The notes beneath the pieces are model-generated. The model had not been told where the DNA came from. It was given only the letters and a program-made list of their open reading frames with translations, and ran no database searches. The position numbers and the translations under genes are program-made. Positions 9,350-45,544 of a stretch of 64,000 nucleotides of DNA are shown here, piece by piece (within the stretch, counting starts at the first letter, position 1; every line of letters begins with the position of its first letter). This DNA comes from Zygnema cylindricum (lineage: Eukaryota > Streptophyta > Zygnematophyceae > Zygnematales > Zygnemataceae): positions 320,372 through 384,371 of the forward strand of contig JBBHKE010000102.1 of assembly GCA_037447655.1 (NCBI GenBank), given 5' to 3'.

Positions 9350-9398
<49 letters not shown>

Positions 9399-9765: not shown

Positions 9766-9945
9766 AGGCTGTCTAAGGGCCCCACGCTGTGCCACCTGGC
9801 GAAACGCGGCGTCTTGTCTGCCACGTGTGGAGAGGCGATTGGATTGGCTGCATTTCTCAGATAGGGAACCCGCACGTGTGAAGGAAGCCTCGCATTGGCT
9901 GACAGTTCCTTGGAGGCCACAGGACACAGGCGTCGCAAGAGACAT
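9766..9945 (-). promoter_or_regulatory. possible promoter: CCAAT boxes and G-box-like ACGTG motifs
   Basis: A non-repetitive 180 bp island holds three CCAAT boxes read on the minus strand (ATTGG near 9839, 9844 and 9895). It also holds two CACGTGT motifs near 9822 and 9873. It lies upstream of the minus-strand exon-like segment at 7604-7781. The pattern suits a plant-type promoter, but no TATA box or start site could be fixed. Confidence 0.35.
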
Positions 9946-10125
9946 TATTTTTTTATACAATTGAGAGATGGGGAGAGAGAGAGAGGGAGGGAGAGAGCAA
10001 ATTGGATACTTTTTGTGAAGTGGGTATATTTTAAAATGAATTTATTTTATATAAATTTGTATAAAATTGAGGAATTTGAGGAGCTTAATTGGGTTACAGA
10101 GATCAATTCATGAGAGGAAAAAGCT

Positions 10126-14636: not shown

Positions 14637-15310
14637 AGTTATGGGCCCACCCTCTAGGGTGCCAATATTTAATGGAACTGGCTTCATATACTGGGAAAGT
14701 ATGATGATAGGAGCTCTATGCGAAAAAAGGTTTTGGGGGATAGTGAGTGGACGATTGGGGCGTCCATCAAGTCTTGGAATTCCTCCAGGGTTTAAAGGAA
14801 GCAGATTCACCAGGAAAGAGGATTCACCTTCAACGGAGGAAACAAAGGAAGGAGAGGTGGTGGACAAAGGCAAGGAGAAGGAGGCGAGGTTTAGCATTCA
14901 TGTCACCTATTCCGAGGAACGAGGAGAATGATATTGAAACCTGGGACTTCAACAATATGGCGGCAAAGCACTTCATCCTACGCCATCTCACTCAAGGACT
15001 TGCATGTCCTCATTTGCAGGTAGAGAGGGCATCCGATCTTTGGATGGCTCTCATAGAGATGTACCGAAGTGGTACGATTCAGCAACAACAGTTGGCTGAT
15101 CAGAAAGTTAAGGAGTATGTATACAAAGGGGGAAATATGTTGGATTTTTGCAATGAGCTTGCTACACTCTTCATGGAGCTAGAGAGTGCGGGTAAAGTTT
15201 TTAGTGAAAAAGAAAAAGTTAACTGTTTACTAATGAAGTTACCTGATGAGTTCGAGAACATAGTCAACCGTGTGCAGGACTTGCCGGACTCAAGGTAGAT
15301 ATGGAACTCA
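14617..15310 (+). pseudogene. A1 gag, frameshifted and with a nonsense codon
   Basis: Starts MEVSEFQVMGPPSR as in A2, but a net 17-bp loss near 14893 changes frame. The second frame (about 14900-15298) holds the copia gag core (ASDLWMALIEMY, then LLMKLPDEFENIV) and stops at TAG 15296-15298 where A2 has TGG. The product cannot be made as one protein without suppression. Confidence 0.85.
14637..14651 (+). other. primer-binding site for half initiator tRNA-Met (A1)
   Basis: AGTTATGGGCCCACC starts at the first base after the LTR. It complements the anticodon arm of plant initiator tRNA-Met (GGUGGGCCCAUAACC) at 14 of 15 positions, with one G-to-A change at its second gag-codon border. Copia-type hemiviruses prime from a cleaved initiator tRNA in this way. 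Confidence 0.8.
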
Positions 15311-18958: not shown

Positions 18959-18971
18959 AAAATAAGGGGAG

Positions 18972-20020
18972 TGTAGAAACTAATGGTTTTATTAGTATTT
19001 TCTAGGTCTGAAAAGAAATATAGAAGTCGAGGCAGTCTATCTCTAACTTCTCTCTCCAACTCTCAAACTTGTCGCAGTCACTGAGAAATTGGAGAGGAAG
19101 CTAGAGCCATGGCTACCTTGGCTATCCTGAGGTTTACGGGAATTTTATATTAGGGTTTATATATTTAATTAAAAGGTGTTTGCCGGCGGCAGGATTTGAT
19201 CATTGTACCTGCCGGCCGGCAAACTCAACGTAGCCGGTGGCCTTAGCCGTTTCATCTAGCGGTAGTGTTACATAGCATATAGTTTGATATTTATTTATAT
19301 ATGTATACAAGCGATAAACCATTTAACTAGAATTAATTACGGGATACATAGATCCAGTAATATGTAATGTACGACTTACGGTACGGACATAAATCAGTAC
19401 CGCGCATTTGTTTCGTAAATGAAACAAATACCGCGCATGTATTTATTACGGCTACGATTAAAGCCGAATTTAATCGGACGGCCGGGATTAGCGCCGAGAT
19501 CGCGGAGGAAGATTTCGGCGGTTTATGGCCATCGCCACATTGGATGACGCGTGGCAAAATTCCGTTGGATTGTGGAAACTCCGGAGATTATGGCACCGAA
19601 TCCGGATTTGACATGTGTCGACATTTTGGCCATGTCGTACAATGTCCGTACATAAAGTACACCGGCAGCTGTACTTTTGCGTACGGAACCCAATTCTGAT
19701 TGGTTCCGTACATCAGTAGATAGAGTCTGTGAGAGAGATAGGACTTAGAAAAATTAGAAGATAGGACCCTCTCTCCCAGAGAGCTTCTGTACAAAAGGTC
19801 AACTTTGACCCTCCATAACTTACTGCTCAGGGGAGCAAATTCAGAGATTCTTTTTGCTATCGACTCAGGGGAGTCTTCTCTTCACAGGGGTGAAGTTGGT
19901 CAGAGTTTTTGTCTGCCAGGGTGGCAGTTATATTTGCTTAAACACAAAGGGGTCAGGATTATCCTAGAGGCTTCTTGGAAGCTGTCCACTCTGAGGACTT
20001 ATGGAGGTCTCAGAGTTTCA
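18972..20020 (+). repeat. 3' LTR of A1
   Basis: 1049 bp, preceded by the polypurine tract AATAAGGGGAG (18961-18971). It ends in the same ATG-containing sequence as the 5' LTR, so a reading frame from 20001 runs 66 codons into flanking DNA. Confidence 0.95.
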
Positions 20021-20025
20021 CTTGC

Positions 20026-22319: not shown

Positions 22320-22324
22320 CATCT

Positions 22325-23369
22325 TGTAGAAGTTGATGGTTCTTTTGGTATTTTCTAGGTCTAAAATAAAATGCATAAAAGAAGCCAAGGCAGTCTGCCT
22401 CTAACTTCTCTCTCGAATTCCCACACTTTTTGCAGTCACTGAAAGTTGGAGAGGAAGTTAGAGCCATGGCTACCTATGTTATCCTGAGAATTACGGGTAG
22501 TATATTAGTTGATTTACGGTAGTAAATTATATGATTTACGGTAGTAAATTAGTTCATTTACTAAAAGTAATGATGTCGGACCCAGGATTTGATCTTGGTA
22601 TCTATTGACAGTATGAGCCGTCGGTAGCCGGTAGCTTTATCCATTTAGTCTATGACTAGTGATAAACCATATAGTGTTAATAATTAGATAAACATTATTA
22701 CGCTAACAAATTCATTTAACGGAAACTATTTACAGGATACATAGGTTCGAATAAGTAAAAGAACGGATTAAGGTACGGACAAGAAACAAGTACCGCGCAT
22801 TTTTTTCGATAGCGAAATGAATATTGCGCAAGTATTTATTACGGCTACGATTAAATCTGCATTTAATCGGACGGCCGGAATGAATGTCGAGATCGAGGAA
22901 GAGGATTTCGACGGTTTTTATTCATCGCCACATCGGATGACACGTGGCAGAATGACATTGGATCATGGCATCTCTAGGGATTAAGGTAGCGAATCGAGAT
23001 ATAACACGTGTCGATATTAAGGCCATGTCGTACAATATCCATACATATAGTACATCACCAGCTGTACTTTTGTGTATGGAAGTGCAATATAATTGGTGTC
23101 GTACATCAATAGATAGAGTTTTAGAGAGAGATGGGACTTAGAAAAATTTGCTAGATATGACCCTCTCTTTATCGTGCATGTGACTAAGAGGGATGGTAAA
23201 CGTGCAACACAATCAGCTGCAAAATAAATAATAAACAAATAAGCGAGAAAGTCATGAACATCTCAGAAAACGAGTGAGAATAATTATGTACAAGCAACAA
23301 GCAGCAAATAAACATATCATAAGAAAAATAAAAGTAGAGTGAGAGAGGAAGCTAGGAGGCTCAGTTTAC
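22325..23369 (+). mobile_element. LTR-like insertion of family A with a foreign 3' end
   Basis: Begins TGTAGAAGTTGATGG and matches family A LTRs to about 23167, including ACACGTGGCAG. The last 200 bp do not match the family except for a GGAGGCTCAGTTTAC end. Total length (1045 bp) is close to the 1049 bp LTR. Flanks CATCT (22320-22324) and CATGT (23370-23374) are a near target duplication. It interrupts the G1 PHD finger immediately after GFHM. Confidence 0.6.
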
Positions 23370-23374
23370 CATGT

Positions 23375-23881
23375 GAAATCCTTGGTTGCAATAGTCGCAT
23401 AGAAGCATTGATGTTTCTCCGTCGGCTCGGTTGCAAAGTGTGCATTCTGTAGCCTCAGTGATAGGCATACGCATAGGGTCCATATCTTGGGATAGATCCG
23501 GTAAATAACATGGAGCAAAGTTCTTCAAATGCTCCCGCAAGGTTTGAGTATCTGCTCCTTGAAGTCCGAGCATGCCATTCGTGTCTACTTCGATTATTCA
23601 GAGAATATGAGGTGAAACATCTTTATCCAAGGTATCGAAGGATTGGCGCCGTAAGTAGACATAATCTCCCACTCGGTAAGGCTTCTGTTGGGGCCGGTAG
23701 CCGCCGCTGCGTGTAGTGGCAAAGCGCAAAGTATCTCTGTGCTGGGCGATCTGCAGGTTGTCAAAAGCATCTCTCGGGCAAAAAACAACGCCATGTTAAT
23801 AAGTTCTCCCATAAAAACCCCGTCAGTCAGTAAAGGAAGAGGAAAGCTTGCGGCTTTCTGGATATTCCTACCCAGCAAGGG
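23375..23881 (-). pseudogene. G1 integrase C-terminus and PHD-type zinc finger
   Basis: The minus-strand frame after the integrase core continues past one TAA (23882-23884) through the integrase C-terminal region (PLLGRNIQKAASFPLPLLTD, then SLTEWEIMSTYG). After a frameshift it reads CTLC (from about 23450) and CDYC, NQGFHM, the C4H part of a PHD finger. The next cysteine lies across the LTR insertion (CLHDIIS at about 22310). PHD fingers bind histone H3 tails, and many gypsy elements instead carry a chromodomain here. The final CxxC of a full PHD was not seen. Confidence 0.65.
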
Positions 23882-25378
23882 TTAAGGACCAAATAAGACA
23901 TAGTAAGGACTGAAATTAGCAAGACTCGCCTGTACCGACATTCGATACCCCATGGCAATATAGCCCAATGACTCGTCCCACACTGTTATATGTTTCTCCA
24001 AGCAATGCTTGCGTAATGCCCGCTTGAAGGTCTGAACTGCACGTTTTGCCAATCCATCAGCATGTGGATGATCGCGGCTTGTTGGACGATGGTCTATGAG
24101 AGCGTCATCTAGCATTTTTTGGAATTCACCGCGGAATTGAGTCCCTTGATCTGTGAGGACTTCGGCTGGAGCGCCGTATCTCATAAGAACATATTCTTTA
24201 AAAGCAGCGGTGGTGAGCTTAGCAGTTTTGTGTGGTAACGCTACAACTTCAACCCATTTGCTGAAATTTTCAATCATAATCATTATATATTGTTTTCCCC
24301 TCCCGAGATATCGGAAAAGGGCCGGCCAAATCGCACGACCAGCGGTAAAATAACCCATTGATGGGTAATGGTTGGTGGGTAGTCTGACAGTTGCTAAAAG
24401 AGTTACGTAGACGATCACACATTGCACACTTGTGCAATACCGATGCGACATCAGATTGCATCCAACACCACCAATAGCGTGCCTGCAGCAAGCTTAAGGT
24501 GCGCTTGGTCCCATAGTGACCCAGCTCGGAGTGAATTTGTTCAATCAGCGAAAGGCATTCAGTCGGGCGAGGCACGTGTATGTGACTACTGTCCGCTAAC
24601 AATCGAACTAGCGAACCACCTAACCAAAGATAATTTTTAGCCCTTTTCTTTACTCGTTCCTCCTCCTTCGATGTAATGTGTGGTTGGAAGGTTTGTGAGG
24701 AGAGGAAAAAAATTAGTGCTCCGTCTCGCCATGGATCCGGAGTAGAACGAGAGTGGGGCAGCGAGGCTAAAGAATGTGTGATATAAAATCTGGCTAACAT
24801 AGTAGCTAAGTCGTCATCGAAATCCTGCCGAACTCCATTGTCTGTGGTTCTTGGCAAAGGATTTGGGAAAATGCCGTTTGCATTCAAACTAAGTAATCCT
24901 GGACGGTGAATTATTCCCACATCATATTCTTGTAAAATTAATGCCCATCCCGCTAATTTTCCTGACAGTTTATCGTTGGTCATCAGCCAATGTAAAGGCT
25001 GATGGTCGATTAGAAGAGTAAACGGTTTTCCGTAAAGGTAGTGACGAAAGTGTTCAATACCCCAAACTGCTGCTAGACATTCTCCTTCATAACTACTGTA
25101 ATTTGATTCCTCACTATTATTACTCCTGCTTGCGTAAGCGACCACGTATTCTTCTTTTGTTAGTTCACGCTGAGTTAAGATGGCCGCAATGCCAGGCTTT
25201 CCGAAGTCTGTTTGTAGGCAGAAAGGTAATTTGTGATTAGGAGGTCAGAGGATTGGAGCACTAGAGAGGGCATCTTTCAACTTCTCAAAAGCCAAAATCT
25301 GATTAGGTCCCCAAACGAAAGGAACTTCTTTCTTGAGCAAATCGTTCAATGGTGAAGCGATAGTGCTAAAACTAGGGA
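23882..25378 (-). pseudogene. G1 RNase H and integrase core
   Basis: The frame resumes at FVPSFSTIASPLN beside the 1435 bp insertion. It runs through RNase H (LAAVWGIEHFRHYLYGKPF, TDFGKPG), then the integrase HHCC zinc region (HSELGHYGTKRT ... CAMC) and the DDE core. The core shows D in DLAGP and D in LTDQGTQF. The third catalytic residue is lysine (HADGLAKRAVQT) where Glu is expected. A stop (TGA in the PIL*PPN region near 25243) and a frameshift near 24300-24450 are present. Integrase is therefore dead in this copy. Confidence 0.85.
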
Positions 25379-25383
25379 CAAAT

Positions 25384-26818
25384 TGTTGTTCTTTGGTCTA
25401 AAATAGACCGCAGAAGCAACCCAAACTATCAAACAAAATGTTAAGCAAAGCTAGGCCAATGAACAATCATTTGAAATGCATCCTCCATTTAACATACATG
25501 CATACACAGATGCAATCATTCCTCTGTACACAGACAGAGCAAGCATGCGTACACATACGCATGAAATCATCTAGGAGTTCATGGAATAGAAGCTAAATAT
25601 ATCTCCATCATCATAACAAACCCTAAGACAATGCATGACATAACAAACACAACTAAGGTTTGATGGAGTAATCAACATAAACAAACCCTTGGACAAATGC
25701 ATACATAATGCATATCAAACAAACATAAAATTAACACATATAAATAATAATAAATGAATGCATCACACATAAACAAATGTATAATCAAATAATCAATGTA
25801 TCATTTAAATGCATGACCTAATCGGCAACCCTAAAAGTCTACATCTTCGGTCCCTACTTTTCATGCTAAGCATTGATGATTTTCCTAATGAAGCTCAAAT
25901 CTATATATACACTTGCGAGCTGTCAACAAATCGCTACGTGTCAAATTAACCAACGTAACTTCCACTAAGTAGTATTAAACCATGAGAACCTATTACAACA
26001 AATAATCCTAACTGTAAGTGTACACCTGAAAGTCAACCAATCATAAGCGTACACTTGTCTGCAAGTACGACAACACACAAATTAAACTGCCGAAACCCTA
26101 AATGATCATCTAAATAAAAACTGTCATAATCAATACTAAATTATAAGTGTCGATATCCTCATTAATCACGTAAAATATAACTATTTTAATCAACACTAAA
26201 TCATTAGTTCGCATAAAACAAAATATTGATGTTTCAAATAATTACACCGACGCGTCCGCAAAATACGCGTCGTAAGCGACAACTCGCTTAGTCACTTTAA
26301 GATAAATCCACGTAGTGAACGGACATCGCATATATACGGTCCACCTAATAATACGTCATTAAAAATAATGCGATCCATTGAAAATATCGGCGGACGTCGT
26401 CCGCCCTCCACGTGTAACTCGAACCACTGCCGAAATTAATCTGTACCTTCCAAATCTTTTCCGTACTGGATATGCGTCGTTTGCAATAAATGCGCCTGTC
26501 GCATATAGAGTACATATGTCCAAATAAGACGTTCCGTATCGGAAGCGTCCTTTTCAAGAGCTGTCGCCTGTCGCATTGTGTTTCGTACGTGCGACGTACT
26601 ATTTTGACTTTTTTAGAATATTTTAAATCGGATCGCTTCGCGATCCGCCGTCTATTTCACTAACGCATTTAGCGCCACTCAATTTACTCCATTAATTTTA
26701 CTCGTACATTAATTCCCCAATCCGCAAATCCTTTCGAACCTCCACAGTATATGAGATAATTACATACGCACGCAAACATGCGCACGCACGTACGAAACTT
26801 AATCTTCCAAAAACAACA
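25384..26818 (+). mobile_element. 1435 bp solo LTR (unassigned family) inside G1
   Basis: Runs from TGTTGTTCTTTGGTC to CTTCCAAAAACAACA, a short inverted repeat with TG...CA ends. It is flanked by the exact 5-bp duplication CAAAT (25379-25383, 26819-26823). Removing it joins LANY with FVPSFS, restoring the RT-RNase H junction. It has no coding capacity. It is AT-rich, with ACAAA/CATAA words at 25490-25810 and CGCGTC/GCGACG motifs at 26245-26650. No second LTR or internal region is visible, so a solo LTR is the simplest reading. Confidence 0.8.
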
Positions 26819-26823
26819 CAAAT

Positions 26824-27810
26824 CTGCGTTAATAATTAGCTAATCCTAGGAAGGCTCGAAGACTCGTGAGATCAACGGGGGTTGGCAGTTTGCTGATAGC
26901 CTCGGTTTTTGCTTCAAATGGTGTGATTCCCTCAAAGGAAATGAAATGTCCAAGGTAAGGCACACTCACGGACGCGAAAGTACATTTAGCTGGATGACAT
27001 TTTAATCCGACCTTTTTCAGTTCAGTTAGGACCCATTCAATATGAGCTGCGTGATCTTTGATTGTGGAGGAGGCGATAATCAAATCATCGATATAACATC
27101 GTGCAAACTTGCAACCACTTAAAACTGAATCCATTAGTTTTTAAAAAACTGCGGGGGCGTTCTTAAGTCCAAAAGGCATGACAGACCACTCCTTACGACC
27201 ATCACTACCCCAAAAGGCGGTATTATGCCAATCCTTCTCCTCTTTTTCAATCTGGTTAAAGCCTTGTCGTAAATCCAGAATACTGAAATATTTAGCGCCT
27301 CCTACATGATCAAATATTTTTTCGGCCAATGTCAATGGATGTCGATCTTGTATCGTTCTAGCATTGAATTCCCGGTAATCGCCGCACATTCGACGATCGG
27401 TAAAGTTTCCTTCGGCATCTTTTTTCCTGGGCATGACAGTGGGTGCTGCAAAAGTAGAATCCGACTGATAAATGAGGCCAGCTTCCTCCAATTCAGCGCA
27501 GCGTTGGTCCACTTATTCCCATTCTATTTCGGATAGGCGGTGTTTCGGCTTGAAAATGGGACGATCGTCTTCAAGATCTATAGACATTTTATAGGTGGTA
27601 TGGCGACCAAGATCATTCACAGAGAAAGCAAAAGCGTCGATATTTTGAATAATCATTTCGTTCAGTAGATCATGTTCAGATTGAGAGAGATTAGAGCCAA
27701 ATTTCCATTTAGGAGATTCCTAACCTTTAATCGTCATTGCTTCCATGGCTTGTGCAAAAGCTAGCTGTTCATCCGCGATAAGTGACTGACCTAATGAGTA
27801 AACAACCGGT
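26824..27810 (-). pseudogene. G1 reverse transcriptase with N-terminal linker
   Basis: The frame runs from the linker (SEHDLLNEMIIQNIDAFAFS, about 27640) to GLIYQSDSTFAAPTVMPRKK. It continues through LDLRQGFNQIE and VMPFGLKNAPAVF, then the YIDD catalytic box (about 27090) and LRAFLGLANY. This is the usual Ty3/gypsy RT. At least three stops interrupt it: one in the linker, one before VDQRC, and TAA after APAVF at 27141-27143. The last TAA, next to the insertion, replaces a tyrosine codon. It copies element RNA into DNA in the family. Confidence 0.85.
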
Positions 27811-27815
27811 GTTTC

Positions 27816-30800
27816 CTATAAGCAGTTTGTCCAATGGTGCCAGCTGCGAGTATGGAAGGCTGCAGTCCAGTGAGGAGGTGTTGACATATGACTAGAGGGA
27901 GCATATTGGGGAGCAATATATGCCGGAATGGACCATGACATTTGGCTAGGGTTCAAGAAATCGTTGATTGTGACATCAGGAGAAGGTTTTATAGAGGATG
28001 GGAAAAGGAAAAATTGAGAAGGTGTCCCTCTAAGGGTGACAATGTGTTTAGAAATTGGTGGTCCATTCCCCCCCCGAGCTGGTTGAGACGGATGGGTTTG
28101 TGCGTAACGACCTGCTGCAAATCCGAGGCCTAAGACAAATGAGAGGGTTTGAGGGTCTATGACACGACCTAAAAGGATGCAGCGCTGTCGTTCTGTGAGA
28201 CCATGGGCAGCCGTAGTGTTGGGAAGGAAATGCATAAGGTGTTCTCGTTCTGTGGTAAAAGGTTAATCTAGGCCGCCTGTGTGAATATTTTTGAGCAGGC
28301 CGGGCCCAACACCCGAGAAGGCGTGAGAGTGTGGATAAGACACTAGAGTGGGGAGAAATTTGAGTGGTTGGCCTGAGACGTTAATGTTGTAATTCGGTGG
28401 GTGATCAGGCTGCAGACAGGTTTGGACTTTGTGAAAAGGAAGAAGTGCACTCTGAATATCTGTAAAAGGAGGTTTGACAGGAAGATTTCCTTCTCTAAGG
28501 CGTCCAATATCAATCAAGTTGGTCCATTTAGATCGAACCCGATGAGCTAACGACTCGTGACGAGCGGCATCAATGATAAGAGGAGGACCAATTAATGCCT
28601 CTATCTGCTTGTAATCAGCTAACACTGTAGGTCGAGGATCGTTATAGGCTGCCACATTTTCCAAAATATATCCCAATGGGCGATCGAAATATTGCAAAAA
28701 ATGCATGATACGAAGAAATTCAAAGAATAATTTGGTGCGGGGATTAGCTAAGCCGAGACCTTTGCCTGCTCGTGACATTCCCTGACACTCCGAACCGGCA
28801 AAGAGAAGATCGATTGGTTTTACATCGGGAAGGTGTTGGTTTCTTATCAAACGAATATCTTGACTTAATGCTGTATGCATGTGAGCAAAAGCAGATTTAG
28901 GGAAAAGATGTGGATATTGTCCGTGTAAAAGATTACAGTGATGTGTTTGGGCTTTCCGAGCTAAAGGGTCAATGTCAACTGAGTAGTAGTGCTTGATAAG
29001 TAATCCGTTGCGAAGGCATGAAAGTAGAGAGGTACCTATGCCTGCGAACAGGTCTAAAATGACTAGACCATCTTGATGAGGTTTTACCTGAATTGGTTTC
29101 CAATTAATGGGAAGAAATCCGGAAGGATCTACAGAAATAAGAGGCAGAGGTGGAACCCGCGATAAAGGAATCTGAAGTGTGTGTTTGTAGATGTGATCGA
29201 ACTCGTGAGAATCGATAATAAAACCTGGATTATCGAAAAGTTCAGGCGAAGAAGGACTATCGGGAAGAATTTCTACTACGGAAAGAGAATGAAAAATTTC
29301 AAATCCCACCGAATTTCCAGAATAAGCACGGACAGATTGGGCTGCGTGAGCCATAATGGGCATGGATTGGCGTGCTGAAATTAGAGGGAGACAATTTTTT
29401 TTTTCCGGATAATTGGTAGGACCGTAGGAAAATGTCTGATCGTACATATCAACGCCGCCTCCTACTCTGAAAATCACATCTTGCCCTACTAAACACTCGT
29501 AATCACTACATTTGGTGACCAATGCGTGTGCACGAACTTCCGCAAAATCAGATTCTGTACCATTTTGAAACCTTAAACAGAGTGGATCCTTCGTAATGCC
29601 CAAAACAAGTTCGGTTCTTCTCGCTAAGGTGAGTAAACCTGTGGAAGTGGACTGAAGTTTATCAGCTGTCAGACCTAGTGTCAGTGCAAAAGATGACCCA
29701 AAAATAATTGGTTTTGCATCGGTGTCCATTAGTGATAATGACGGTACGACACCATTGACTGAAAATGCACCCTTCCTATTATCTAGAAAACTGATGTGTG
29801 GGTCAAGTGAACTACGCTCGTCGATAAAGATAGGCCTAAGAGCGTCAAGATTATGGTTTATTTGTAAAGCTTGTAATGTAGCAAATGGGATGGATGTCAC
29901 CGTAGATTTTAGGTTGGGTGAATTGGAAATCATAGTAGACAAAATGCATAATCTTTCCTTAACCCTATGGCTGTCCTGAATGGAGCGGTCAAAAATAGTG
30001 AGTGCTTCCGCCGTGATAGTGGAAGGTGTTTCGGGTAAATGGGTTGTGGTTTCTTTGGAAAATGATAATGGTAGACGTGTGCTACTCTGTTTACCCTCGC
30101 GATTGTGATCAACTGTCCCCTTGTCAAACGTGGTTGCCCTCTTTTGAATGGTTGAATCTCGTAAAACTCGACCTGCTAGCGTGGGCAGGTGGACAACTGT
30201 ACGAGCCATACCAGTTAGGTGAGTGGGCGGTTTCATTTGAGCCATAAGGGCTGCAAACTGGTCTTTGATCATAGCGGCCATTTGAGTTTGCATTTCCTCT
30301 CTCTCTTTTTCTCTCCGAGACACTTTAGGTGGAGAGTTTTTTTCTGACTCTTTATCTGGTTGGACTACTTTGGCAGATCTAGCCGGTATGCCACCATTTC
30401 GAATCTGATTTTGATATGAAAATTCAGGGTTTTTGATGTGACAACGATACACAAAGTGGCCAGTCTGTTTGCAGTGTGTACAGGTCGCAGATTTATTCGG
30501 ACACATCCGAGCATTATGCGCGGTCTTGCCACATCTTAAACAAATCCGATTGGATGGTTGATTTGGTGGGGTTCCCATAGTTGGGACCCTTGGTGGCCGA
30601 TTATTCGGCCCCAAGTTACGAGGATTTGGTGAATTGAAAGGGTTAGGTTCTCTCTGAGGGGCTTTTGGTCGATCGTGGGCCTCCCACCAACAATTCGTCA
30701 TCTTGTATTCTACAGCGTATTGAGCTGCCTGGTCGAATGTAAATTTGAGACCGTATGTTTGGGTAAGATGGCTTTGAATAAATTTCTTTGATTGGAAAGG

Positions 30801-31048
30801 AAACTGTCCAACAAACTTCTGGACAGCTTCGACATCTGATATCAGATCGGGTAACGCTTCCCGCTAGGTCTCCATGCGGGCTCTGAAAGTGGGGGCAGTT
30901 TCGCCCGGTTTACGCTCAAAATTCATTAATTCTTTAACTTGGTCAGGATTCTGCATGCGATACACCTCTTGTAACAAATTAAACATTATGGTGAAAGGGT
31001 CTCGTAACGGAATAGTCATCCAGGGTCGTGCCGAGACGGCGGCTCGGG
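27816..31048 (-). pseudogene. G1 gag C-part, protease and DNMT3-like DNA methyltransferase
   Basis: Open from 30862 to 28263 and, past one TAA (28263-28265), in frame to 27816. Upstream to 31048 is gag (RDPFTIMFNLLQEVY) with a TAG at 30863-30865. Counting residues from Met 30701: two CCHC knuckles (C54-C67, C74-C87) and a retropepsin-like LMDTDAKP (about 322-329). A cytosine-5 methyltransferase follows from about 545. Its motif I is DLFAGIGTSLL, the catalytic loop GSECQGMS (Cys about 638), then KLFFEFLRI, ENV (about 681) and AHRVRSKWTNL. After the stop come EREHLMHF and QRCILLGR. Motif order I-X is unpermuted, and FFEF and AHR..W.NL resemble DNMT3, unlike the rearranged DRM enzymes. In the family such enzymes methylate cytosine in DNA. 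Here the enzyme sits between protease and RT. Confidence 0.9.
28150..29090 (-). other. DNMT3-like methyltransferase domain within G1
   Basis: Domain extent marked separately. SAM-binding motif I codons lie near 29056, the catalytic Cys near 28789, ENV near 28661, the RxR motif VIII near 28545, and the C-terminal motifs IX-X at about 28240-28160, beyond the in-frame TAA at 28263-28265. The usual Pro before the catalytic Cys is Glu (ECQ). Confidence 0.88.
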
Positions 31049-31053
31049 CTCTT

Positions 31054-32102
31054 TGTAGAAACTAATGGTTTTATTAGTATTTTCTAGGTCTGAAAAGAAA
31101 TATAGAAGTCGAGGCAGTCTATCTCTAACTTCTCTCTCCAACTCTCAAACTTGTCGCAGTCACTGAGAAATTGGAGAGGAAGCTAGAGCCATGGCTACCT
31201 TGGCTATCCTGAGGTTTACGGGAATTTTATATTAGGGTTTATATATTTAATTAAAATGTATGTGCCGGCGGCAGGATTTGATCCATGTACCTACCGGCCG
31301 GCAGATAGGATATAGCCGGTAGCCTTAGCCGTTAAATCTAGCAGTAGTGTTAGATAGCATATAGTTTGATAATTATTTACATATGTATATTAGCGATAAA
31401 CCATTTAACTGAAATGAATTACGGGATACATAGATCCAGTAATATATAATGTACGACTTACGGTACGGACAAAAATCAGTACCGCGCATTTGTTTCGTAA
31501 ATGAAACAAATACTGCGCATGTATTTATTACGGCTACGATTAAAGCCGAATTTAATCGGACGGCCGGGATTAGCGCCGAGATCGCGGAGGAAGATTTCGG
31601 CGGTTTGTGGCCATCGCCACATCGGATGACGCGTGGCGAAATTCCGTTGGATTGTGGAATCTCCGGAGATTATGGCACCGAATCCGGATTTGACATGTGT
31701 CGACATTTTGGCCATGTCGTACAATATCCGTACATAAAGTACACCGGCAGCTGTACTTTTGCGTACGGAACTCAATTCTGATTGGTTCCGTACATCAGTA
31801 GATACAGTCTGTGAGAGAGATAGGACTTAGAAAAATTAGAAGATAGGACCCTCTCTCCCAGAGAGCTTCTGTACAAAAGGTCAACTTTGACCCTCCATAA
31901 CTTAGTACTCAGGGGAGTAAATTCAGAGATTCTTTTTGCTATCGACTCAGGGGAGTTTTGTCTTCACAGGGGTGAAGTTGGTCAGAGTTTTTGTCTGCCA
32001 GGGTGGCAGTTATTTTTGCTTAAACACAAAGGGGTCAGGATTATCCTAGAGGCTTCTTGGAAGCTGTCCACTCTGAGGACTTATGGAGGTCTCAGAGTTT
32101 CA
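31054..32102 (+). repeat. 5' LTR of A2
   Basis: Same borders as in A1. The core promoter reads TACAAAA (31872-31878). The gag ATG at 32083 lies 20 bp before the LTR end. Confidence 0.95.
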
Positions 32103-35100
32103 GGTTATGGGCCCACCCTCTAGGGTACCAATCTTTAATGGAACTGGCTTCATATACTGGGAAAGTATGATGATAGGAGCTCTATGCGAAAAAAGGTTTT
32201 GGGGGATAGTGAGTGGACGATTGGGGCGTCCATCAAGTCTTCGAATTCCTCCAGGGTTTGGAGGAAGCAGATTCATCAGGAAAGAGGATTCACCTTCAAC
32301 GGAGGAAACAAAGGAAGGAGAGGTGGTGGACAAAGGAAAGGAGAAGGAGGCGACCACACCAATAGCAACTGGTTCGACATTCATGTCACCTATTCCGAGG
32401 AACGAGGAGAATGATACTGAAACCTGGGACTTCAACAATATGGCAGCAAAGCACTTCATCCTACGCCATCTCACTCAAGGACTTGCATGTCCTCATTTGC
32501 AGGTAGAGAGGGCATCCGATCTTTGGATGGCTCTCATAGAGATGTACCGAAGTGGTACGATTCAGCAACAACAGTTGGCTGATCAGAAAGTTAAGGAGTA
32601 TGTATACAAAGGGGGAAATATGTTGGATTTTTGCAATGAGCTTGCTACACTCTTCATGGAGCTAGAGAGTGCGGGTAAAGTTTTTAGTGAAAAAGAAAAA
32701 GTTAACTGTTTACTAATGAAGTTACCTGATGAGTTCGAGAACATAGTCAACCGTGTGCAGGACTTGCCGGACTCAAGGTGGATATGGAACTCAGTGGTAG
32801 GGATGATTCTCGTTCGAGAGAATACGATTGAGAGCCGAAGGGGAGGAAAGAGTGGCCAAGCCTTGGCAACAGCGACCGATTGGAGGAACAAGGATTCCCG
32901 GAAACCAGTCGGAAACTATGGGGGTAGGGAGCAGAAAAAACAGGTTGGCGAGTTCGAACCAAGGGCTCCCAAAGGTTTAAGTCATTTTTGTAAGAAACCG
33001 GTTCACTATATGGCAGAGTGCACCAAGCTAACCGAGCTTCGGTTAAAGGAGGGGCAGACCGGTGGTACCCCGAGAGGAAAGAAAAAGGCCCTTGTCACAC
33101 AGGTACTTGAGGCGGAATCCGAGGACGAGGACGATGAGCTCCTTTTGGATGAGGAGTTGGAGGCGAAAACTGAGGTTGAAATTCCACGAAGGCAGAAATG
33201 TGCTTACGGTGGATTGAAAGGTGAAGCAGGCTGGATTATAGATTCAGGTGCCTCAATGCACATGTGTAAGGATATACACCTGTTCACTAAGATAAGAAAG
33301 ATTCCCACCGTAGAGATAGAGTACGGGGATGGGAGGATAGTCACCACTACTCTTGTAGGATCGGTAGATCTGAAAGTGTTAGTAGAAGGAAAGACATCCA
33401 TATTAACATTCTCCGATGTATTGTTTATTCCGGAGCTGAACAAAAACCTTATCTCTACATCAGTATTAGATGATAAGGGTTTTTTCACTAGCACTAGGGA
33501 AGGAGTCTTTACTGCTAGTTTTGAGGAGGATGTCTATTTCATTGCTGAGAAAGGTAGCCATGGGATGTTTAGGATGATCTTAAGTAATGAAACGAAGAAA
33601 CTTTATTATGCTGGTGTTCATGATATTATGATGTGGCATAAGAGGCTTGGGCATGTAAATCTAGATAAGTTAAGAGAGATGAAAAAGATGGGAGTGGTGG
33701 AAGGGATTCAGTTCAGTGAGAGTGATGATATAAGTGATTGTAGTGGGTGTGCTCAAGGTAAAGCACACAGATTACCCTTTCCAAAAACAGCCAGCTACAA
33801 GGGAGAAAAAATTCTAGATCTAGTACACACAGATATTTGGGGACCAGCTAGAGTGCCCTCAACGGGGGGGAAGAGATTTATGATGACTATAACTGATGAT
33901 TGGTCTCGGTATTCCCGAGTATATTTTTTGAAAAACAAGTCAGAGGCTGAGGACTGTTTTAGACAATATAAAGCATGGAGCGAAAAACTCCATGAAACTC
34001 CAATCAAGAGAGTAAGGAGTGACAATGGTGGAGAGTATACTTCTAACCAGTTTGAGGATTTTTTGAGGGAAGATGGGGTTCAACACCAAAAGACAGTGCC
34101 AGAAAATCCTGAACAGAATGGGGTAGCTGAAAGGTTAAATAGAACACTAAGTGATAGTGCTAGAAGTATGTTGTCGGATAAGAAGATAGGAAAAAGGTTT
34201 TGGGCAGAAGCAATGAACTGTGCTAATTACCTCAAAAATAGAGTTCTTACTTCAGCTATAAAAGATCAAACACCTTATGAGAGATGGACAGGCCGGAAAC
34301 CAGACTTATCTCATTTAAAGGTTTTCGGCAGTCAAGTATTCAGTCTAGATACTGATCGGTCCAATTGGAAGCTAGATCCTAAAGGAAAACCGGGATACTT
34401 ATTAGGATATGATGAGGATGTTAAAGGATATAGAGTTTATGATCTAAAAAGAGAAGATATAATCTTAGTAAAGCATCTAGTAGTTATGGATGAAGGAAAT
34501 TCTGTGGATCCCTTCAAATATACAAAGTCAGTAAAAATCAGATTTGAGTCAGAAAATTCTGATGACTTTGAGCTTCCTAACTATCCAGGTTTTAGAGACG
34601 ATGACATTCTTGCAGGAACAAATCAGACCGAAAAGGACTCGGCTGTGGAAACTCCAGTGACAACTTTACCCGAAGCGGAAGACGTGGTGGAAATTGATTC
34701 GGAATCAAGGGATAGGGGAGAAGCCGAGTTTGTTCGAAAGAATCCACGAGAACCATCTATTCCGGCCTCAGATTTTGAGGGAGGGAGGAGAAGTAGCAAA
34801 AGACTGCAAGAAAAACAGGTTAATAACAAGGTAACTAAACTATCTCATCAAGATGAACCTCAAACTTATCGAGAGGCGATGACTTGTCCAGAAAGAAACC
34901 GGTGGAAGACAGCCATCAATGAGGAGATGGCTTCAATCATGGCAGCCGATACTTGGGAGCTGGTGGACTGTCCACCTAACCGAAAACCAATCGGTTGTAA
35001 GTGGGTTTTCAAACTAAAACTGAACCCAGATAACACAATCGAGCGCTACAAGGCCAGATTAGTGGCAAAGGGATTTACACAAAAGGAAGGAATTGACTAC

Positions 35101-36441
35101 GAGGAAACCTTTGCCCCGGTGGTCAGATTTCCCTCCGTCCGCATACTTCTCAGTTTAGCAGCGGCGGAAGACATGGAAGTGCACCAGATGGACATCAAAA
35201 CAGCCTTTTTGCATGGAGAATTAGAAGAGGAGATCTTCATGCGACAACCCGAAGGGTTTGTGGAAGAAGGAGAGGAGAGTAAGGTATGCCGGCTGATTAA
35301 ATCTCTTTATGGTTTGAAACAGGCGCCCCGACAGTGGAATAAGAAGCTTGATGAGTTTCTTACCGGTCTAGGATATATTCGGATCAGCTCAGATCACTCA
35401 ATCTATGTTTTCGAAGATGAGGAAGGTTTTATATTTATTGCAATTTATGTTGATGATTTGCTTGTTTTAAGTAAATCAATGGAAAAAATTAATAAACTGA
35501 AAACCGATCTTAAGGGGAGATTTGAAATGAAGGATATGGGGGAAGCAAAATATATTTTGGGAATTCAAGTAGAGAGAGACCGAAAAAGAAAAATTATAAG
35601 ATTGACTCAAAAGGAAGCAATAGGGAACATGCTTGAAAAATTTCAAATGGATAAAGCTAATAGTTGTACAACTCCAATGGAATTGAAGAAGGGAAGTGAG
35701 GGGAGTGAGGAAGAAGGAGTCATAGTCTTAGACGAGGAATTATCTCCTGAAGAACAGAAGTTCATGCAGACTATTCCTTACAGGCAAGTAGTGGGAAGTC
35801 TAATCTATTTTATGAATTGTACCCGGCCGGATTTAGCTGCAGCTGTAGGAGTGCTGAGTAGAAGTCTAAATGCTCCCACTAAGAAGGATTGGGAGGCAGC
35901 TAAGAGAGTCCTTAGATACTTGGTAGGAACTAGAGATCTATGGTTGCATTTGGGTGGGGAGAATACTGACATCACTACTTGGAGTGATGCCAGTTATGGT
36001 GATGCTCCGATGAGGAGATGTACTTCTGGATATGTATTATATGTGGGTGATGGGGCTTGCTGTTGGAGTAGCAAACAGCAAAAGGTTATTGCTCAGTCCA
36101 CCATGGAGGCTGAGTATATGGCCTCTTGCTCTGCTGTAAAAGAATTGATGTGGGTCAAGTCTTTGCTTGGTGAGCTTGGTCACCTTAAGAGTGGTGTGCA
36201 GAAAATATTTTGTGATAATCAGGCAGCAATCGCTATTTCTGCCAATCCTAAACACCATTTTAAAGCCAAACACATGGACATCAGACTCAGCTTTGTTAGA
36301 GAGAAAGTAGAAAACAAAATAATCAGTTTAGAGTACAGACCAGATAGTGAGATGGTAGCAGATATGATGACCAAACTTCTGCCTTCCCCTAAGCTAATTT
36401 TTTGCAGGGAGAAGTGTGGTCTGAAATTAAAGATTGACTAG
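32083..36441 (+). CDS. A2 gag-pol polyprotein, 1452 residues
   Basis: One open frame in copia order. The start ATG is in the LTR, chosen because it is the first in frame and conserved in the family. Gag core is about residues 110-240. The zinc knuckle, about 300-313, has lost its first Cys (SHFCKKPVHYMAEC). The protease motif is DSGA at 387. The integrase has zinc ligands H519/H523 and CSGC, and catalytic D584, D647 and E683 (35 residues between the last two, the D,D35E spacing). RT has YVDD at 1122-1125. RNase H residues are D1302, E1342 and D1378. The polyprotein is cut by its protease, and RT/RNase H copy RNA in the particle before integrase inserts the DNA. The Cys loss may impair RNA packaging despite the open frame. 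Confidence 0.95.
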   Translation: MEVSEFQVMGPPSRVPIFNGTGFIYWESMMIGALCEKRFWGIVSGRLGRPSSLRIPPGFGGSRFIRKEDSPSTEETKEGEVVDKGKEKEATTPIATGSTFMSPIPRNEENDTETWDFNNMAAKHFILRHLTQGLACPHLQVERASDLWMALIEMYRSGTIQQQQLADQKVKEYVYKGGNMLDFCNELATLFMELESAGKVFSEKEKVNCLLMKLPDEFENIVNRVQDLPDSRWIWNSVVGMILVRENTIESRRGGKSGQALATATDWRNKDSRKPVGNYGGREQKKQVGEFEPRAPKGLSHFCKKPVHYMAECTKLTELRLKEGQTGGTPRGKKKALVTQVLEAESEDEDDELLLDEELEAKTEVEIPRRQKCAYGGLKGEAGWIIDSGASMHMCKDIHLFTKIRKIPTVEIEYGDGRIVTTTLVGSVDLKVLVEGKTSILTFSDVLFIPELNKNLISTSVLDDKGFFTSTREGVFTASFEEDVYFIAEKGSHGMFRMILSNETKKLYYAGVHDIMMWHKRLGHVNLDKLREMKKMGVVEGIQFSESDDISDCSGCAQGKAHRLPFPKTASYKGEKILDLVHTDIWGPARVPSTGGKRFMMTITDDWSRYSRVYFLKNKSEAEDCFRQYKAWSEKLHETPIKRVRSDNGGEYTSNQFEDFLREDGVQHQKTVPENPEQNGVAERLNRTLSDSARSMLSDKKIGKRFWAEAMNCANYLKNRVLTSAIKDQTPYERWTGRKPDLSHLKVFGSQVFSLDTDRSNWKLDPKGKPGYLLGYDEDVKGYRVYDLKREDIILVKHLVVMDEGNSVDPFKYTKSVKIRFESENSDDFELPNYPGFRDDDILAGTNQTEKDSAVETPVTTLPEAEDVVEIDSESRDRGEAEFVRKNPREPSIPASDFEGGRRSSKRLQEKQVNNKVTKLSHQDEPQTYREAMTCPERNRWKTAINEEMASIMAADTWELVDCPPNRKPIGCKWVFKLKLNPDNTIERYKARLVAKGFTQKEGIDYEETFAPVVRFPSVRILLSLAAAEDMEVHQMDIKTAFLHGELEEEIFMRQPEGFVEEGEESKVCRLIKSLYGLKQAPRQWNKKLDEFLTGLGYIRISSDHSIYVFEDEEGFIFIAIYVDDLLVLSKSMEKINKLKTDLKGRFEMKDMGEAKYILGIQVERDRKRKIIRLTQKEAIGNMLEKFQMDKANSCTTPMELKKGSEGSEEEGVIVLDEELSPEEQKFMQTIPYRQVVGSLIYFMNCTRPDLAAAVGVLSRSLNAPTKKDWEAAKRVLRYLVGTRDLWLHLGGENTDITTWSDASYGDAPMRRCTSGYVLYVGDGACCWSSKQQKVIAQSTMEAEYMASCSAVKELMWVKSLLGELGHLKSGVQKIFCDNQAAIAISANPKHHFKAKHMDIRLSFVREKVENKIISLEYRPDSEMVADMMTKLLPSPKLIFCREKCGLKLKID
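32103..32117 (+). other. primer-binding site for half initiator tRNA-Met (A2)
   Basis: GGTTATGGGCCCACC, the first 15 bases after the LTR, is the exact complement of GGUGGGCCCAUAACC in the anticodon arm of plant initiator tRNA-Met. These bases also encode gag residues V-M-G-P of the QVMGPPSR motif. Confidence 0.88.
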
Positions 36442-36454
36442 AAAATAAGGGGAG

Positions 36455-37503
36455 TGTAGAAACTAATGGTTTTATTAGTATTTTCTAGGTCTGAAAAGAA
36501 ATATAGAAGTCGAGGCAGTCTATCTCTAACTTCTCTCTCCAACTCTCAAACTTGTCGCAGTCATTGAGAAATTGGAGAGGAAGCTAGAGCCATGGCTACC
36601 TTGGCTATCCTGAGGTTTACGGGAATTTTATATTAGGGTTTATATATTTAATTAAAATGTATGTGCCGGCGGCAGGATTTGATCCATGTACCTACCGGCC
36701 GGCAGATAGGATATAGCCGGTAGCCTTAGCCGTTAAATCTAGCAGTAGTGTTAGATAGCATATAGTTTGATAATTATTTACATATGTATATTAGCGATAA
36801 ACCATTTAACTGAAATGAATTACGGGATACATAGATCCAGTAATATATAATGTACGACTTACGGTACGGACAAAAATCAGTACCGCGCATTTGTTTCGTA
36901 AATGAAACAAATACCGCGCATGTATTTATTACGGCTACGATTAAAGCCGAATTTAATCGGACGGCCGGGATTAGCGCCGAGATCGCGGAGGAAGATTTCG
37001 GCGGTTTGTGGCCATCGCCACATCGGATGACGCGTGGCGAAATTCCGTTGGATTGTGGAATCTCCGGAGATTATGGCACCGAATCCGGATTTGACATGTG
37101 TCGACATTTTGGCCATGTCGTACAATATCCGTACATAAAGTACACCGGCAGCTGTACTTTTGCGTACGGAACTCAATTCTGATTGGTTCCGTACATCAGT
37201 AGATAGAGTCTGTGAGAGAGATAGGACTTAGAAAAATTAGAAGATAGGACCCTCTCTCCCAGAGAGCTTCTATACAAAAGGTCAACTTTGACCCTCCATA
37301 ACTTACTGCTCAGGGGAGCAAATTCAGAGATTCTTTTTGCTATCAACTCAGGGGAGTCTTGTCTTCACAGGGGTGAAGTTGGTCAGAGTTTTTGTCTGCC
37401 AGGGTGGCAGTTATTTTTGCTTAAACACAAAGGGGTCAGGATTATCCTAGAGGCTTCTTGGAAGCTGTCCACTCTGAGGACTTATGGAGGTCTCAGAGTT
37501 TCA
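36455..37503 (+). repeat. 3' LTR of A2
   Basis: 1049 bp, preceded by the polypurine tract AATAAGGGGAG. Its terminal ATG (37484) opens a 76-codon frame into antisense G1 gag. Confidence 0.95.
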
Positions 37504-37508
37504 CTCTT

Positions 37509-38196
37509 ATGGCATATTGGTGGGGAACCTCCGTTACAGCCGGGTAAAGAACATTGCTAAGCGTATCCAAGACCTCGGGAATAGCAGCTTGATAAGGAAT
37601 TTTTGCTTGACCTATAACCTTAGGTATACCAGCAAACTATGGAGAATATTGTTCATCGGAAGTATGCCATCATACTTGCTGGAATATAAGGTAAGGGCGG
37701 ACCCGCGAAGGTAACGCCCGAGAAGGGAGAAAGCGACACGCATGTCAAATCTATCTTGATAACGGAAAGCTAGATCTCGCATTTCAGTGTCGAATAGCAT
37801 TCGAAAATGAGATAAACTCATGGTATCTTTCATTCCGAAAAAGCAGAATTGAAGTTTACCAGGAGTACCCTCCGATGTGGAGGCCATCAAAACAAACGAG
37901 TTAGTCAAATTCAAAGCCTGAATCGGTGCTAACGGAGACCAAAAAGAAAGAAAATCTGAATCGGGTTCCCTTTCGTTATCAACTTCTTCCACAGATAGCG
38001 TGGAAAGAATGCATGACAAAGATGAGAGAGTGGTTAAATCCGAACTAGTAGAAGACGTTCTAGATTTGATTAAAGGACTTAACGTCAAAGGAACCGAATT
38101 TGATAAATTTGATTCATCGAAATTTGATGAACAAAAAGTTCCACCACTACGTGTAGACCCGTATGAGTGGTCAAGATTTTCCCAACCGGTGGGCAT
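37509..38196 (-). pseudogene. G1 gag N-terminal part
   Basis: From ATG 38196 a 194-codon frame (MPTGWENLDHSYGSTRSGG ...) includes acidic and Ser/Thr-rich stretches and ends at TAG 37612. An overlapping frame (IPEVLDTLSNVLYPAV) then continues without a break to the A2 target site and, after removal of A2 and one CTCTT, in frame into the gag part at 31048. One frameshift therefore separates them. Gag forms the particle shell in this family. Confidence 0.7.
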
Positions 38197-38880
38197 AAAA
38201 ATGACTTAGATAACAAACTAATCCGCTAATGGATACGCCCAATATGAGGTGCAACAAATGCTAAACCATACCACATACGTAGGCAACAATCTCAAACAGT
38301 CTCCCACAACGCCACGATGGCTAGATCTAGTCAAGAGGCCGTTTTTACCGAAACCACTACCCTACAAACGAGTGGGCAAGGCCAAAGGGCCAGATCTATA
38401 AAGGGAGAAACTTGCTAAACAAGCACCCGGAGGTGCAGATCTAAAGCTCCACAGGCAGAAAATAGTTCTATCCAAGGCCACCAACGGCCAGATCTAACAA
38501 TAAAATTCCACGCCAAACAGACAACAAGAAAAACACTAGGCCACTCACGGCCAGATGGGAAGCATGGAAAGCGTGGACAGTGCAAGTGCTCAATACAATT
38601 AGGTCTAAGTGAACCTAATCCACTCACGTACCCTCTAAATGATCAACAACTATCCTGACACGCGCATGCACCCACAAGGCATCGTGAACTTACAAACCAC
38701 TCATAGCGATCTGGCGATTGCCAAGGGTGAACAGCGGTTGTTCGCTCCAACCGGAGTTTTGCAGAGCTCCCAAAAACGAATCAGTTCCACTATCTCAACT
38801 CCAAATTGTCGAGCAGACACCACAGCTCAATTACCAACTTAGTTAGTAGCTTGTTAGGGCACACGTATCAGCACTATGCC
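38197..38880 (-). other. G1 leader with repeated AGATCT motifs
   Basis: Non-coding sequence upstream of G1 gag. (G)GCCAGATCTA-type words recur about five times between 38317 and 38555, at spacings of roughly 45-75 bp. TGGCATAGTGCTGATAC, read on the minus strand near 38880, could be a tRNA primer site because it begins TGG, but no LTR is recognised beside it. Confidence 0.4.
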
Positions 38881-39185
38881 ACGCTCTGCCCGTCTATGAA
38901 GCAATGGTTATTTTATGTGATAATTAGTGCAACCTAATATATATATTTATATATATCTTAGGGGTGTTTTTTTTTTTTTTTTATAAGTTTGCTAGGTTTT
39001 CTGAGTGAGTTAATCTGGTAAGAAAAAAGAAGAGAAAACGATACCAGACAGTTCAGCAATCTCAGATTCAACAACTCAAAAACAAACTAGACAACAAATG
39101 AAATTAAAATAAAGCATGGCAAAAATTTAAACATACATACAAAAACTAGATAGAAAAACCAATTGACACAAAGAATAACGAAACT

Positions 39186-39413
39186 TTGAAAAACTGACAA
39201 TTTCAAATTGCACAAATTGGAGAAAAACTGAAAATGTCAAATTGCAGTAAATAGAAGAAAAACTGACAATTTAAAATTGCAGAAAATGGAGCAAAACTGA
39301 AAATTTCAAATTGCAGTAAATAGAAGAAAACTTGACAATTTCAAATTGCAGAAAATAGAACAAAACTATAAATGTCAAATTGCAGTAAATAGAAGAAAAA
39401 CTGACAATTTTCA
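39186..39413. repeat. tandem repeat, about 40 bp unit, six copies
   Basis: Units of the form GAAAAACTGACAATTTCAAA followed by TTGCAGAAAATGGA or TTGCAGTAAATAGA alternate, giving an approximately 80 bp higher-order period. No coding potential. Confidence 0.8.
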
Positions 39414-40533
39414 AGAGCACAGGAATATTAAGCCAACGGATAGCCACTAGGCTCCTTGGTTAGTTTATATTTTTTATATGAGTTCAATAAATAAAAATTT
39501 AACTCAATATCACAACACACCAACTGAAACTGTAGCAAACTGCGAGCAAATCTAAGATATCTAGATTTAGTCACACACGAAACATACAAGGAAAGCCAAT
39601 TCTAATCCACTATCACGCAGTAAACCACACAAGCAAACCCAAAACTGTCCAATCACAATCCAGGGTTCAGCGACAACCTGAGAAAGAAGATCGAGCAACA
39701 ATCCACTTGATAGGACGAGAGAAGAAGTGAAGGGAAACCGGTTAGGCTTCGGCTTGAGCCGCGTAGATTAATTTGTAGGGCAGGTTTACAGAGAAAGAAA
39801 ATAAGAGCTAAGGAGCAGAACGTTCAATGACCAAAAAAGTAGTCACTAAAACTATCCTGACAATTTCACAAGAAAAATACTCAAATTTTAGGTCAAATCT
39901 TCCAAAATGAGAATTCCTGTGCTCTTGAAATTGTGAGCACAGAATTCACCTAACATTCGCTAAGTACAAAGTCTACAGCTGAGAGTCTACCTTACTACGC
40001 CTACATGCGTTTTATTTAGTTTTCTGCGTTAGTTTGGATTTTGGCCAATAGGCGACCAGAATCGTGTGCCTTACGTTACCAAATCTACAGCCTACGGATA
40101 AAAACCCTTCCTACGCTACATGTGAATGCGTGCGACCTCAAGGGTCCACAACTTAAAATGGTCCTGCGTGCAGTTCGCATCTGGACCGTCCATTCGTCTG
40201 CATTCCTCGTGGCCGTAGATTCGCGTTCGAATCCACGCTGGCGTCGACATCACTTGGAGTTGATGTTTCGGTTCACGATCGTCCAAACATCGATCCAAAC
40301 TTGTCGCGGAAATTTCGGCCGACGAAGTATGTCGGTTCGCCAAAATTCCCGGACAGACGACTTCGCGGACAGAAACTAAAACTGTCCGCGGGTTTCACGG
40401 CGTCAACGACAATTTGTACGGTCATGTCGCCACTGAAACATACCAAAATACAAATTAGTGTGGCGTAAATTTTACAGACAGTTTATATGCAATTAAAATG
40501 CGGTTAAAATGCGACGACGTGATACGACATGAC
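39414..40533. other. unassigned sequence
   Basis: Mixed AT-rich sequence, then a more GC-balanced block (40040-40440). Overlapping short frames on both strands there (40041-40379 plus, 40116-40343 minus) match no domain I know. A TTCGAATCC word near 40232 is tRNA T-loop-like but has no matching arms. Confidence 0.5.
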
Positions 40534-45537: not shown

Positions 45538-45544
45538 CATCCCA

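Follow-up and report, generated by a model that had tools for sequence, protein, structure and literature searches.

DNMT3-type cytosine methyltransferases (MTases) carried by retrotransposons have been described previously. In Klebsormidium nitens, de Mendoza et al. (2018) found a Gypsy element whose Pol open reading frame (ORF) includes a Dnmt3 and whose repeats are DIRS-like (KnitGypsy-Dnmt3), and in Symbiodinium the element SymbioDIRS-Dnmt3 likewise carries a Dnmt3 MTase in Pol, has repeats in the order A-coding-B-A-B, and methylates CG in yeast (PMC5890265). Citing that report, a later paper places some DNMT3s in long terminal repeat (LTR) Copia and DIRS elements (PMC12344493); the report is cited also in PMC10538959, and antiviral roles have been speculated upon (PMC6338049). 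The principle of a retrotransposon-borne DNMT3 is already published (PMC5890265), as an initial annotation of the DNA analysed here, made from the sequence alone, had correctly stated; its suggestion that the arrangement might be undescribed is not supported, since a Gypsy Pol ORF with Dnmt3 and such repeats is in the same paper. Here, we analyse a 64,000-nucleotide stretch of Zygnema cylindricum DNA (contig JBBHKE010000102.1, positions 320,372 to 384,371; hereafter the window) that contains a Ty3/Gypsy element with a DNMT3-like MTase. Our best overall explanation, to which we assign a probability of roughly 0.6, is that this is a dead member of a large, recently active family that keeps a captured DNMT3-type cytosine MTase as a domain of Pol, where it would methylate new element DNA.

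Split-direct-repeat elements of the Ngaro, PAT and DIRS groups have the order A-coding-B-A-B, encode tyrosine recombinases and, to our knowledge, make no target duplication. The Zygnema element shares their repeat order but differs by its DDE integrase, polypurine tract and 4-base pair (bp) duplications. Chromoviruses have a Gypsy Pol with a chromodomain, a chromatin reader, after the integrase; the Zygnema element likewise has a chromatin-reader module in this position, with a PHD finger for the chromodomain. Whereas SymbioDIRS-Dnmt3 has a tyrosine recombinase, the Zygnema element has a DDE integrase (rve), TG...CA ends and the 4-bp duplications. With KnitGypsy-Dnmt3, as described in print, it has in common LTR Gypsy domains, an unpermuted Dnmt3-type MTase in Pol, DIRS-like repeats and purifying selection (PMC5890265); the layout of the K. 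nitens repeats is given in a figure legend, and the text examined contains no mechanism for it. The Zygnema family differs by an in-frame UAG before MTase-Pol (in one branch, B), a PHD finger (a word absent from the main text of PMC5890265) and ECQ in place of the catalytic PCQ (in the other branch, A). The UAG, ECQ, the C-terminal PHD finger and the end structure appear to be additions to the literature, within the limits of our search.

The coding features of the window copy are as follows (aa, amino acids; RT, reverse transcriptase):

28263..30863, minus strand, open frame, stop to stop, of 866 aa: Gag C-terminus, CCHC knuckles, protease-like region and MTase to motif IX (ORF list, Pfam, solved-structure search, motif reading)
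30441..30542, minus strand, two CCHC zinc knuckles, at 30501-30542 and 30441-30482 (motifs read in frame)
29709..29732, minus strand, protease active-site region LMDTDAKP, with DTD in place of DTG (motif read in frame)
28161..29057, minus strand, DNMT3-like C5-MTase domain (motifs I to X), interrupted by a stop codon (Pfam, structure and profile searches, motifs)
29034-29057, minus strand, MTase motif LDLFAGIG (read in frame)
28773-28796, minus strand, MTase catalytic motif GSECQGMS (read in frame)
28716-28727, minus strand, MTase motif FFEF (read in frame)
28653-28664, minus strand, MTase motif LENV (read in frame)
28515-28547, minus strand, MTase motif AHRVRSKWTNL (read in frame)
28161-28175, minus strand, MTase motif LLGRV, past an in-frame TAA (read in frame)
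27816..28262, minus strand, same frame past the TAA: MTase C-terminus (motif X, LLGR) and linker to RT (aligns with intact copy)
27141..27512, minus strand, RT fragment (RVT_1, 41.3 bits), in a frame other than that of the MTase (Pfam)
24270..25244, minus strand, RNase H and integrase H2C2 zinc domain (Pfam)
23882..24493, minus strand, integrase core, rve (Pfam)
23370..23460, minus strand, first part of a C-terminal PHD finger, CTLCNRADGETSMLLCDYCNQGFHM, truncated in this copy (sequence reading; the PHD is complete in stretch L012 by Pfam)

The domain content and order, protease-RT-RNase H-integrase with rve, is that of Ty3/Gypsy by Pfam, the protease being weak and below the cut-off. No tyrosine recombinase was among the Pfam matches of the scanned frames, rve being present instead; a further match of the integrase core is to the IS481 transposase model, at a score well under the cut-off of that model (67.7 of 224 bits, E 1.2e-18). 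Pfam reported no protease family for the window copy, and Asp_protease_2 reached only E 0.011, below cut-off, on the homologous region of another copy, L011. Gag/nucleocapsid chains match the 866-aa frame only weakly (E of at least 0.02 in the PDB search). That the window element is a Ty3/Gypsy element with an MTase is virtually certain. The order proposed initially, CCHC knuckles, protease, MTase and then RT, stands; a single frame does not, as the RT lies in another frame and pol is interrupted at 25383-26817. The open frame given as 27816-30862 is likewise cut, by a TAA at 28263-28265, leaving 28263-30863 open, and the MTase described as full has its motifs, with LLGRV beyond that TAA. The protease remnant reads DTD at its active site, and the catalytic Cys loop reads SECQ.

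The predicted C5-MTase match is borne out by Pfam: DNA_methylase (PF00145) scores 49.7 bits against a cut-off of 22 (E 4.8e-13) at residues 602-739 of the 866-aa frame, and 44.6 and 49.8 bits in copies L011 and L009. DNMT3A is the best solved-structure match to this frame (E 6.6e-10) and leads the profile ranking of the MTase (E 1.1e-24), ahead of DRM2 (1.1e-10), HhaI (1.3e-9) and DNMT2-type enzymes (7e-9); DNMT1/CMT chains are not among the profile-search matches listed up to E 0.1. DNMT3A/3B come first also by fold in model comparisons. Assignment of the enzyme as DNMT3-like and unpermuted, rather than DRM, bacterial or DNMT2-type, is supported by both profile and fold, in agreement with the initial annotation. 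The animal DNMT3A/3B enzymes differ in that they are 19-25% identical to the element MTase over the aligned part, and their PWWP and ADD domains were not found in the element frames scanned with Pfam. C5-MTases have the catalytic motifs PCQ, ENV and R.R. At the PCQ site, branch B reads WPCQ, branch A WECQ and the window copy SECQ; WECQ occurs in all 19 other branch A copies caught by a motif pattern (21 loci, two copies fetched twice; eight further branch A loci were not caught). Glutamate at this position also occurs in three relatives from the protein collection (P0006, P0012 and P0018). The catalytic Cys, the Gln, the ENV Glu and the HRVR arginines are kept.

Searching the host genome (352.8 Mb) with PF00145 produced 782 first-look candidates; 123 were scored, and all 123 lay above the cut-off, a result well beyond chance; K. 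nitens, by comparison, has fewer copies than Symbiodinium (PMC5890265), whereas Zygnema has many. Not all 123 scored matches are elements, because one (L007 1498-1800, G000:C514) is a host exon of chromomethylase type. When the window ORF served as query, scoring 52 of 3,599 candidates yielded 56 matches in the same genome, 24 of which, the window included, are colinear over Gag, protease and MTase (from residue 25 or earlier to 800 or later). Branch A can encode everything from Gag to PHD in a single frame of approximately 2,395 codons: the open frame around copy C1344 is 2,395 aa long (read in two stretches one base apart, L011 of 2,155 aa and L012 of 239 aa), in the order CCHC, protease (both below Pfam cut-offs), MTase, RT, RNase H, H2C2, rve and PHD. 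Some other copies also have open frames and near-identical terminal repeats. The MTases of branches A and B are 42% identical, and both branches carry the MTase between protease and RT. The protein collection yielded 18 relatives, 36-55% identical; the only species named among them is Closterium sp. NIES-54, and no protein is named K. nitens. Among these relatives are fusions of the MTase with RT or with integrase-PHD, and in the Gypsy-like proteins P0006, P0007 and P0010 the MTase precedes integrase and PHD. In a tree of element MTases only, where P0018 sits on a long, unreliable branch, P0006, P0007, P0010 and P0012-P0016 form one clade of eight (support 100/99); the alternative MTase site in this clade implies that the MTase has held at least two sites in Pol.

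Ratios of nonsynonymous to synonymous divergence (dN/dS) were computed after copies with less than 85% coverage in one frame had been dropped. In branch A (18 copies), the median for the MTase is 0.145 from 24 usable of 153 pairs, with 117 pairs saturated and 11 closer pairs at 0.30; in branch B (nine copies), it is 0.119 from eight of 36 pairs, with eight saturated and 17 closer pairs at 0.28. It is highly likely that the MTase is selected for a function in the element. Methylation is a host weapon against transposons, yet this retrotransposon lineage keeps an MTase under purifying selection, across divergences at which synonymous sites are saturated. As a part of Pol, the MTase would be packaged with RT and integrase and would methylate, probably at CG, the new double-stranded complementary DNA (cDNA) while it is being integrated or before that. 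On the sequence evidence, we consider the chances of such cDNA methylation to be even. The mark could disguise the cDNA as resident DNA, shield its cytosines from deaminases, or cap further transposition, and the sequence favours none of the three; the PHD finger probably guides integration to chromatin of a given H3K4 state. The many copies, the open frames, the branch with a conserved UAG and the dead copies make the role of a retroelement DNMT3 directly testable.

In all five branch B copies read, TAG CAA TTC closes the Gag-protease side, and the MTase-RT frame carries on beyond it without a change of phase. The pattern ATN TAG CAA TTC CCN ATN TCC has 223 matches genome-wide and 241 if any triplet is allowed for TAG, with one match each for the reversed control patterns; TAG is constant while the flanking wobble bases vary. 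At least 13 of the TAG places, matched by eye, are followed within 1 kb by a scored MTase match on the same strand. The leaky stop context is UAG CAR YYA; in branch B the CAR is present and the last base is C rather than A. RNA folds 3' of the UAG beat shuffled sequences in L006 (z -3.2) and L003 (z -3.9). Very probably, branch B makes MTase-Pol only by stop-codon readthrough.

Could a host DNMT3 gene or pseudogene simply lie by accident inside a Gypsy copy? The only point in favour is that the window copy is broken and nested with other elements, but Gag-protease-MTase colinearity in 24 of 56 matches (window included), a position common to two diverged branches, purifying selection on the MTase and the fusions with RT or integrase-PHD in relatives elsewhere make this extremely improbable; we reject it on the architecture common to other copies. 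The genome-wide copy search thereby also disposes of a separate inserted gene, the outcome that the initial annotation had named as fatal to its proposal. A non-catalytic MTase, binding nucleic acid in the particle or spacing Pol, is a more serious alternative, above all for branch A, where ECQ replaces PCQ (as it does in P0006, P0012 and P0018); it nevertheless seems unlikely given the residues that remain (catalytic Cys, Gln, ENV Glu, HRxR arginines), the PCQ kept in branch B, and purifying selection over the whole domain. The enzyme might instead modify the RNA of the element rather than its cDNA: Pol would also meet genomic RNA in the particle, and RNA methylation was raised for SymbioLINE-Dnmt (PMC5890265, Discussion). 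This we judge improbable, with DNMT3 (E 1.1e-24) ranking well above DNMT2-type enzymes (7e-9) in the profile search.

Several points weigh against a captured, active MTase domain of Pol. KnitGypsy-Dnmt3, the nearest case in the literature, produced no methylation in yeast, a result its authors call inconclusive (PMC5890265), and ECQ in branch A may lower or change activity. RT pairs are saturated and gave no usable dN/dS against which to set that of the MTase. Readthrough itself is presumed from sequence, and the fold after the UAG in L002 is unremarkable (z -0.34; this stretch began 3 nt later). C>T differences among eight copies of the window subfamily (CpG 552/7,762; CHG 678/7,188; CHH 959/30,773) give bootstrap ratios to CHH of 1.71-3.01 for CpG and 2.36-3.84 for CHG; three Copia copies used as a control go in the same direction, more weakly (CpG 1.26-2.41, CHG 1.19-2.04), and in four other comparisons (a closer Copia pair, Copia LTRs, a branch B repeat, another repeat pair) the intervals include 1. 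Because the Copia control is also raised, this decay is not specific to the MTase element; it looks like general host CG and CHG methylation, from which the element MTase apparently does not spare old copies. CpG observed/expected ratios did not clearly separate young from old copies, the lowest being 0.66 in L009 of branch B.

The ends of the element are also unusual. The standard Ty3/Gypsy layout of two identical full terminal LTRs was not encountered; instead, five of the eight copies examined at both ends (C1374, C1344, C449, C829 and C1915) have the order A-coding-B-A-B, C1407 has the 3' part only, and no A repeat is present in the fetched stretches of C2577 and C544. Two of seven further copies (C451 and C1974) have A at the 5' end too and follow this order; the other copies had no end that could be read. 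C1374, of branch B, carries an extra 3.7-kb stretch within this order, between B1 and a second B (L010 1633-5348), with a repeated PHD-B stretch on each side. The integrated order is A-coding-polypurine tract-B-GC-A-B with ends TGTC...GACA: B1 follows a G-rich polypurine tract and ends in GACA, GC follows, A2 starts with TGTC, and B2 has no tract. Searching with a query across B1-GC-A2 yielded 331 candidates, and the 40 that were scored all matched. Coding sequence and tract precede B1 in all of the 12 best loci, GACAGCTGTC is exact in eight of the 12, and the mirror form A-B-A-coding-B occurs in none of them. The A2|B2 junction could be read in 10 of the 12 loci, among which L061 and L064 have a flank in common. 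It differs between loci in the final bases of A and in how many Gs it has, and its extra bases (an extra T, extra Gs) correspond to those next to A1 and within the tract. For an A|B query there were 329 candidates; all 40 that were scored matched, and three of these places, once fetched, resemble solo A|B. Perfect 4-bp target duplications flank six of the 10 insertions for which both ends were read (TTGG, AAGG, CCCT, AGGT, GTCA and ACAA; chance 1 in 256 each); C449 agrees at three of four bases, and C1374, C451 and C1643 mismatch.

With the polypurine tract and the A end as its limits, reverse transcription would make an LTR of B-GC-A, and the integrated form would be a permutation of it, with the outermost B joined to the far A end and integrase acting at GACA-GC-TGTC. 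The observed order would arise from a two-LTR circle if this were opened at a single site; random opening would give mirror forms, and none was seen, implying either a directional choice or template-completed ends as in split-repeat elements. The latter, a DIRS/Ngaro-like route, is possible for the repeat structure: linear ends would be completed on the internal B-A junction as template, without end-joined cDNA. It accords with the layout, which is that of split direct repeats (as stated for K. nitens in PMC5890265), and with the lack of mirror forms in 12 loci, where about half would be expected under random circle opening; it sits less well with the tract before B1 but not B2, and with A2|B2 ends whose variability and extra bases are as expected of joined reverse-transcription ends. 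The finding of a single junction form in the closely related C1344, C215 and C1643 fits either route. We offer only tentatively, and as somewhat doubtful in its full form, the proposal that this lineage left standard LTR integration: its cDNA would be end-joined (A|B), the DDE integrase would open the internal palindrome GACA-GC-TGTC directionally, and the Pol-borne MTase (made only by UAG readthrough in one branch) would methylate the cDNA. If this is true, end-joined cDNA would be a productive integration substrate; the repeats and junctions prompt the question of whether retroelement cDNA with joined ends is invariably unproductive.

The window copy itself is interrupted by, or continues beyond, the following:

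28263..28265, minus strand, in-frame TAA in the MTase, between motifs IX and X (ORF list, frame comparison with other copies)
25383..26817, no strand assigned, foreign, non-coding-looking sequence (approximately 1.4 kb) interrupting pol between RT and RNase H (alignment break against four other copies)
31054..37503, plus strand, nested Copia in the gag region, LTRs at 31054-32102 and 36455-37503 (repeat comparison)
37565..40164, minus strand, rest of gag, 5' region and repeat A remnant of this Gypsy copy on the far side of the Copia (patchy matches of L011, L015, L016, L017 and L018)

The frame is open in L004 and L011 where the window copy stops at the TAA, and alignment to other copies shows the 3' end to be lost at 23369. 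The LTRs of the nested Copia are 99.1% identical over 1,049 bp, with CTCTT on both sides (31049-31053 and 37504-37508). Against its own subfamily, the window copy is about neutral in both the MTase (dN/dS 0.68 and 1.18; two copies passed) and the protease region (0.91-1.57; seven copies). Because of the TAA, the 1.4-kb pol insertion, the nested Copia and this near-neutral decay, the window copy is, judged by its sequence, a dead member of a large, recently active Ty3/Gypsy family; that this copy is functional is not supported.

Three related Copia elements lie in the window (13588-20022, 31054-37503 and 40535-45540): the first two are 97.8% identical over 6.45 kb, and the third is approximately 89% identical. 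A diverged LTR-like stretch is present at 22324-23168. The segments 47980-48814 and 52930-53764 form an 835-bp direct repeat pair (95.3% identical, approximately 5 kb apart), perhaps the LTRs of another element. Purine skew is strong at 1-2000 (GC skew 0.55, AT skew 0.37) and at 8001-10000 (GC 0.76, AT 0.64), alongside internal repeats around 7.8-8.7 kb.
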